Below, one piece after another: positions 27,506 to 28,082 of a stretch of DNA of 36,354 bases. The stretch spans positions 1 to 36,354 of the forward strand of contig JAGBZM010000055.1 of the NCBI GenBank assembly GCA_017628235.1, given 5' to 3'. Made by a program: the position numbers and the translations under genes. The DNA is from Lentisphaeria bacterium. GTDB lineage: Bacteria > Verrucomicrobiota > Lentisphaeria > Victivallales > Victivallaceae. How positions within the stretch are numbered: position 1 is the first letter of the stretch; every line of letters starts with the position of its first letter. The notes under the pieces were generated by a model, which worked only from the letters and a program-made list of their open reading frames with translations, did not search any database and was not told the DNA's origin.

Positions 27506-27856
27506 TCAAGCCTCGGCAGGAGCTTCAGCAGCTTCAGCAGCAGCTTTAGCTTCGGCTTCGGCAGCGGCTTTGGCTTTCGCCTTCTTGGAAATATTCGCCG
27601 GACGGACACGATCTTTCAAAACGACACCGGTACGGGCGCGATCGACGATATCTTTGACCGTCTCGGACAATTCTGCACCGACACCGGCCCAGTAGTCGAT
27701 CCGGGCAAGATCGATCTTCTCTTCCTTGCTGCGCGGATTGTAGAAACCCACTTCTTCGATCGCTTTGCCGTCACGGCTGGAACGCTGATCCATCACCACG
27801 ACCCGGAAACAGACCGCATTGCGGGTTCCGGTACGTTTCAATCTGATTCTGACCAT
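27506..27856 (-). CDS. rpsP: 30S ribosomal protein S16 with Ala/Glu/Lys-rich tail
   Basis: Protein of 116 aa. The first about 85 residues are classic S16 (MVRIRLKRTGTRN, VVMDQRSSRDGKAIEEVGFYNPRSKEEK, YWAGVGAELSETV). The last about 28 residues are a low-complexity Ala/Glu/Lys tail, as occurs in S16 of various phyla. It is the first gene of the rpsP-khpA-trmD-rplS-rnhB run. Its SD (AAGAGGT) lies inside one arm of a 10-bp inverted repeat, so translation is probably controlled by leader folding. Confidence 0.96.
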   Translation of the reverse strand: MVRIRLKRTGTRNAVCFRVVVMDQRSSRDGKAIEEVGFYNPRSKEEKIDLARIDYWAGVGAELSETVKDIVDRARTGVVLKDRVRPANISKKAKAKAAAEAEAKAAAEAAEAPAEA

Positions 27857-28050
27857 AAAACTGTTTACCTCTTGTTAATATTCGTTTCTTCACGTTTCAC
27901 TTTTCCCGTTCGCAACCACTGACAAGAGGTACAGCTACGTTACAGAAATCCCGGTTTTCCGGCGACTTCCCCCTCTTTTCAGGTGCGACGAACCGACAGG
28001 CCCAGAGGATTTCGGCCATAGGTCCATGCATTACGCATCTGCAAAAGTCT
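27857..28050 (-). promoter_or_regulatory. rpsP leader: candidate SD-sequestering RNA switch
   Basis: About 190 bases from the expected start (about 28049) to the rpsP ATG. A perfect 10-bp inverted repeat (27931-27922 with 27875-27866; TACCTCTTGT/ACAAGAGGTA, 46-base loop) buries the SD. Upstream, CCTCT (28008-28004) can pair with AGAGG (27976-27972), and that same AAGAGG can instead pair with the CCTCTT of the first SD-blocking arm. A further 7-bp helix joins 28013-28007 to 27951-27945, and CCGG-AAAA-CCGG forms at 27962-27951. This is a four-segment either/or layout. S16 feedback or another ligand is possible; the trigger is unknown. Confidence 0.6.
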
Positions 28051-28053
28051 TAT

Positions 28054-28082
28054 AATATACTGCTTGTTGAAAGATTATGCAA
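28054..28082 (-). promoter_or_regulatory. Promoter of the rpsP operon
   Basis: TTGCAT (28082-28077), 17-bp spacer, TATATT (28059-28054) on the minus strand, giving the long leader described at 27857-28050. Confidence 0.72.

Follow-up and report, generated by a model that had tools for sequence, protein, structure and literature searches.

A conserved two-hairpin RNA upstream of rpsP in Lentisphaeria, probably a new S16-type ribosomal-protein leader

The rpsP operon and its leader

We analysed a stretch of 36,354 nucleotides from a Lentisphaeria bacterium (contig JAGBZM010000055.1, positions 1 to 36,354; hereafter the window). The genes at its rpsP locus lie on the minus strand, and Pfam identified the members of an operon rpsP-khpA-trmD-rplS-rnhB, with thrS as the next gene of the same run after rnhB:

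29470-28172, minus strand: Kdo-transferase gene, upstream of rpsP
28054..28082, minus strand: promoter with -35 box TTGCAT (28082-28077), 17-nt spacer and -10 box TATATT (28059-28054), from a consensus scan and homologous leaders
27506..27856, minus strand: rpsP, ribosomal protein bS16 (PF00886, E 2e-19), directly downstream of the RNA described here
27490-27176, minus strand: khpA, operon member
27147-26434, minus strand: trmD, operon member
26437-26093, minus strand: rplS, operon member
26079-25399, minus strand: rnhB, operon member

In this operon khpA occupies the position that rimM has in E. coli. The gene order rpsP-khpA-trmD-rplS recurs in RNA-carrying loci of the genera g1 and g34.

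The initial annotation had proposed this promoter together with a leader of about 190 bases, and both were borne out. The arrangement TTGCAT-17-TATATT of the window recurs as TTGNNN-16/17-TATATT in about 41 of 43 homologous leaders, where its spacing from hairpin 1 (see below) is similar; the interval from the end of the -10 box to the P1 region is 21-34 nt in nearly all of them. Transcription would start at about 28047, which gives a leader of ~190 nt. Between the RNA and rpsP, the window showed no terminator. Given this absence and the conserved promoter located with the RNA, we conclude that the RNA belongs to the rpsP mRNA. Folding of the plus strand was uninformative, the genes being on the minus strand.

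Two hairpins conserved ahead of rpsP

Homologous loci were fetched with the rpsP protein from genomes of the same genus and its relatives. All 33 testable leaders of the genus shared a core: UAUGG, then AUCCUC enclosed by the two halves of a short variable stem, then CCUR and, further downstream, ACGURGCUGU. In the window, this core forms part of two hairpins:

27988..28027, minus strand: hairpin 1, from covariation in 33 and 43 leaders
28027-28021 with 27994-27988, minus strand: stem P1 of hairpin 1, 7 bp
between P1 and the inner stem: internal loop UAU/UGUC in the window, UAU/UGUN across the family
28017-28014 with 28002-27999, minus strand: inner stem of hairpin 1, GGCC in the window, starting GG/CC in the family
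28010-28005, minus strand: loop motif AUCCUC of hairpin 1, invariant in 43/43 leaders
27924..27977, minus strand: hairpin 2, from covariation of P2 and its position after GCUGU
27977-27972 (AAGAGG) with 27929-27924 (CCUCUU), minus strand: stem P2, closing the loop of hairpin 2
27969-27945, minus strand: optional stem P3 in the loop of hairpin 2
27942-27931, minus strand: conserved UAACGUAGCUGU in the loop of hairpin 2

For hairpin 1, covariation was counted in a plain MAFFT alignment of the 33 leaders, with shuffled and slid controls. Paired cells amounted to 90.4%, compared with 67.7% after shuffling, and 91 cells carried double changes (shuffled: 32.1, sd 4.8; slid controls: 14-33). RNAalifold, unaided, recovered the same helices from these leaders. 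Since kinship may inflate counts of double changes, we also simulated 300 alignments along the rpsP tree. Across 43 leaders the covariation score was 0.708, whereas the simulations had a mean of 0.147 and a maximum of 0.303; double changes numbered 117, compared with 37 in the simulations (maximum 68). The seven column pairs with the highest covariation scores were all predicted pairs. Taken singly, three pairs reached an E-value below 0.05 in the tree simulation and the others were weak; we therefore claim significance at the level of the whole structure. The many G-U pairs, which would be A-C mismatches on the other strand, suggest that the functional RNA is the rpsP-sense strand.

In hairpin 2, the 3' side of the loop reads UAACGURGCUGU across the family and is almost invariant. 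P2 starts 0-3 nt past GCUGU in 41 of the 43 leaders, with mostly differing sequences. In the 43-leader count, the 5' strand of P2 was picked by folding, which biases that count toward pairing. Summed over the 33 leaders, P2 stood 7 sd above shuffles. In fixed columns of the nine closest leaders, 98.1% of its pairs were kept, and 15 cells carried double changes, compared with 4.8 (sd 1.6) after shuffling. Some subclades carry the additional hairpin P3 in the 5' part of the loop.

Two further observations concern the region between hairpin 2 and the Shine-Dalgarno (SD) sequence. One subclade (L011, L013, L015, L018, L115, L118) has more conserved stretches there, in several leaders CCCGGTCGTGTATTGTAAAC ... 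ATGAACCGAAGA, suggesting an additional structural element. In the window (27902-27882) and its closest relatives (L003-L008, L112, L113), the invariant and unexplained stretch AACGTGAAGAAACGAA lies right before the SD.

We built a model, R2, from the conserved core. Of the 34 genus genomes, 33 each gave exactly one strong match, and the remaining one, G043, yielded an rpsP fragment only. Matches were also obtained in ten genomes of two further genera of the same family. The RNA thus occurs as a single copy per genome in a total of 43 genomes, which belong to three genera of one family. Among named records, R2 matched SUWG01000003.1 (Lentisphaerae bacterium SIG92) and JAFSTC010000112.1 (Lentisphaeria bacterium RGIG3449, goat rumen). 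The RNA lies directly upstream of rpsP in all 43 loci, with block B 60-178 nt from the rpsP ATG. At E 0.001, a search of 198 genomes of the class gave no match outside the three genera, and R2 likewise matched none of the other rpsP loci searched, which came from many phyla. Scanning viral contigs turned up no relative. A weak match in G062, from another family (E 0.007), was rejected, as it had no hairpin 1. Within Lentisphaeria, R2 did not match L034 (JAFVUZ010000009.1), whose rpsP is 71% identical, which implies loss, divergence or gain of the RNA within the wider group.

Relation to known leaders and the probable ligand

Rfam was searched with the window at the gathering score and at a relaxed E-value, and nothing relevant was found; none of the Rfam riboswitch models matched. 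No rpsP leader in Lentisphaerota was found in the open literature (subscription papers and supplements were outside this scope). Matching no Rfam family, the two-hairpin rpsP leader appears to be an undescribed RNA family of a known kind, in line with the initial annotation, which had suggested that the layout may be new among S16 leaders.

The S16-Flavobacteria leader (RF03138) was proposed as an S16 leader on the same argument (Eckert and Weinberg 2020; PMC7247131). Like that RNA, the present one is a structured RNA directly before rpsP with an internal loop in a hairpin, and S16 as the presumed ligand. However, RF03138 is one 35-nt hairpin (AUUAAUAACCGAGGUCGAGAACCUCAAAAAUUAAU), whereas the present RNA spans ~100 nt with two hairpins and other conserved loops. 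At the gathering score, the RF03138 covariance model did not match the window, L002 or L142, and the same library found RF03138 in L110; conversely, R2 did not match the RF03138-bearing locus L110. Leaders for L19 have been named in Firmicutes and Flavobacteria (PMC7247131). The present RNA resembles these in sitting in a ribosomal-protein operon that contains rplS, but it precedes rpsP rather than directly rplS, and no Rfam L19 leader matched the window.

What we found, a covarying RNA structure in the 5' UTR of a ribosomal-protein operon, is what characterizes ribosomal-protein leaders, and a structured RNA confined to the start of one such operon fits this class. We consider it probable that the RNA is a new S16-type leader that controls rpsP-khpA-trmD-rplS by S16 feedback. 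S16 is the most likely ligand because rpsP is the first gene and because S16 leaders have precedent. As we infer the regulation, S16 in excess over free 16S rRNA would bind the leader, and the bound leader would lower translation of rpsP and, via the operon mRNA, of khpA-trmD-rplS. The SD may be blocked by steric occlusion, or its GAGG core may pair with the AUCCUC loop.

We examined the second of these candidates across the family. The SD core is GAGG in 38 of the 43 leaders and AAGG in five (L020, L021, L023, L024, L119). Pairing between CCUC of the loop and GAGG is accordingly available in 38 leaders, which is suggestive, but mostly without significance in per-leader shuffles. In the five AAGG leaders AUCCUC is unchanged. 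As the loop is invariant despite these SDs, its conservation is not accounted for by SD pairing; more likely, the loop itself takes part in binding directly.

Ribosomal-protein leaders frequently, though not obligatorily, mimic the binding site on the rRNA. The AUGG..CCUG part of the RNA resembles helix 15 (h15) of E. coli 16S rRNA, its sole match there, and a match of this kind arises somewhere in 33% of shuffles. Helix 15 contributes to the site where S16 binds 16S rRNA (PMC5591316). We rejected h15 mimicry, as AUGG..CCUG is absent from the 16S rRNA of the RNA-carrying genome G134 in a sequence-level comparison. A search for 16S rRNA in the genus genomes with RF00177 found none.

S16 is not the sole candidate ligand, since L19, KhpA and TrmD are also encoded in the operon. 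The same RNA might be a cis-regulator for L19, KhpA or a small molecule such as SAM, the cofactor of TrmD, and hence an orphan riboswitch. We regard this as possible, albeit clearly less probable than S16 feedback. The presence of rplS, khpA and trmD in the operon speaks for it, as does the unsupported 16S mimicry, and the almost invariant loops AUCCUC and UAACGURGCUGU would suit an aptamer as well as a protein site. However, it is common for a metabolite riboswitch to recur ahead of several operons, whereas the RNA always has rpsP as its first gene and occurs nowhere else in the genomes; the missing match to Rfam riboswitches also argues against another ligand. A narrower version appears doubtful: an aptamer for a new, non-S16 cue (a metabolite or an assembly-factor signal) that would couple the output of S16, TrmD and L19 to it. 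In this version the invariant AUCCUC, with its resemblance to the anti-SD core CCUCC, would serve as an internal anti-SD, exposed or hidden by the ligand.

The Shine-Dalgarno helix and further alternatives

The initial annotation had read this leader as an attenuator- or riboswitch-like switch in which a perfect repeat hides the rpsP SD (segments 3 and 4) and upstream copies of CCTCT (segment 1) and AAGAGG (segment 2) allow two exclusive folds, 1:2 with 3:4, or 2:3. The upstream copies are both present, at 28008-28004 (inside AUCCUCU) and 27977-27972, and so is the repeat:

27922..27931, minus strand: segment 3, TACCTCTTGT, contains the 3' strand of P2 and complements the SD in this species alone
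27866..27875, minus strand: segment 4, ACAAGAGGTA, the rpsP SD region, with GAGG at 27871-27868

The 10-bp match between 27931-27922 and 27875-27866 was reached in none of 200 mononucleotide shuffles of the SD region. RNAfold of the full window leader gave the SD helix, with a probability of 1.0 for pairing between the SD and the 3' strand of P2, and without ligand this helix was favoured over the P2 fold by ~7.6 kcal/mol in the complete leader. The nascent window RNA without the SD folded into P2. Compared with shuffles, the whole window leader was only moderately more stable (z = -2.06).

In the homologous leaders the two folds fared differently. Pairing 2:3 is the conserved and covarying helix P2. 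In contrast, the window has the only complete 1:2 pairing and the only perfect 3:4 helix; elsewhere 3:4 has 6-8 of the 10 pairs. Ensemble folds of the other 42 leaders gave probabilities of at most 0.03 for pairing of the SD with the 3' strand of P2. Among the nine closest leaders, 82.1% of the 3:4 cells were paired, with one double-change cell, which is the level of shuffles; its outer UAC/GUA is common to close relatives, in which each strand is conserved. By a refutation criterion that the initial annotation had set, homologous leaders lacking the paired segments, the SD switch is refuted as a conserved device. These comparisons indicate that the SD helix arises because the P2 strand of this species happens to resemble the SD complement. 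As the nascent leader would form P2 first and the full leader without ligand prefers the SD helix, a species-specific switch is possible, without comparative support.

As an account of the RNA itself, an attenuator-like switch with the SD buried by 3:4 and freed by 2:3 is quite unlikely. In the window, a perfect SD helix dominates thermodynamically, with P2 as its competitor, so that the sequence can bury its SD in an alternative helix as in SD-sequestering translational riboswitches and attenuators. Unlike these, however, it has no Rfam aptamer match and its SD helix is neither conserved nor formed in the 42 homologous leaders. Moreover, if a protein stabilised P2, the SD helix would give activation and not feedback repression.

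A separate trans-acting small RNA merely sharing its promoter with rpsP is very unlikely; the promoter of its own, the conserved fold and the one copy per genome would suit this, but the constant position of the RNA directly before rpsP and the lack of a terminator in the window do not. The idea that a leader peptide spans the region and that protein is conserved can practically be dismissed, since, despite an AUG within UAUGG in 42 of 43 leaders and the existence of short ORFs, no frame is conserved, the length of the inner hairpin ranges over 12-16 nt and not in steps of three, and the changes follow base pairing.

Under S16 feedback, the reading we favour, pairing of the SD with the 3' strand of P2 would be a second off state in the species of the window alone, opposed by formation of P2.

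According to a 2024 review, nothing is known of how the E. coli rpsP-rimM-trmD-rplS operon is regulated. A second rpsP leader, structurally unrelated to the first and from a distant phylum, would support independent origins of S16 feedback. The alignment, the models and two well-defined loops are now available to probe for the site of the protein or ligand.
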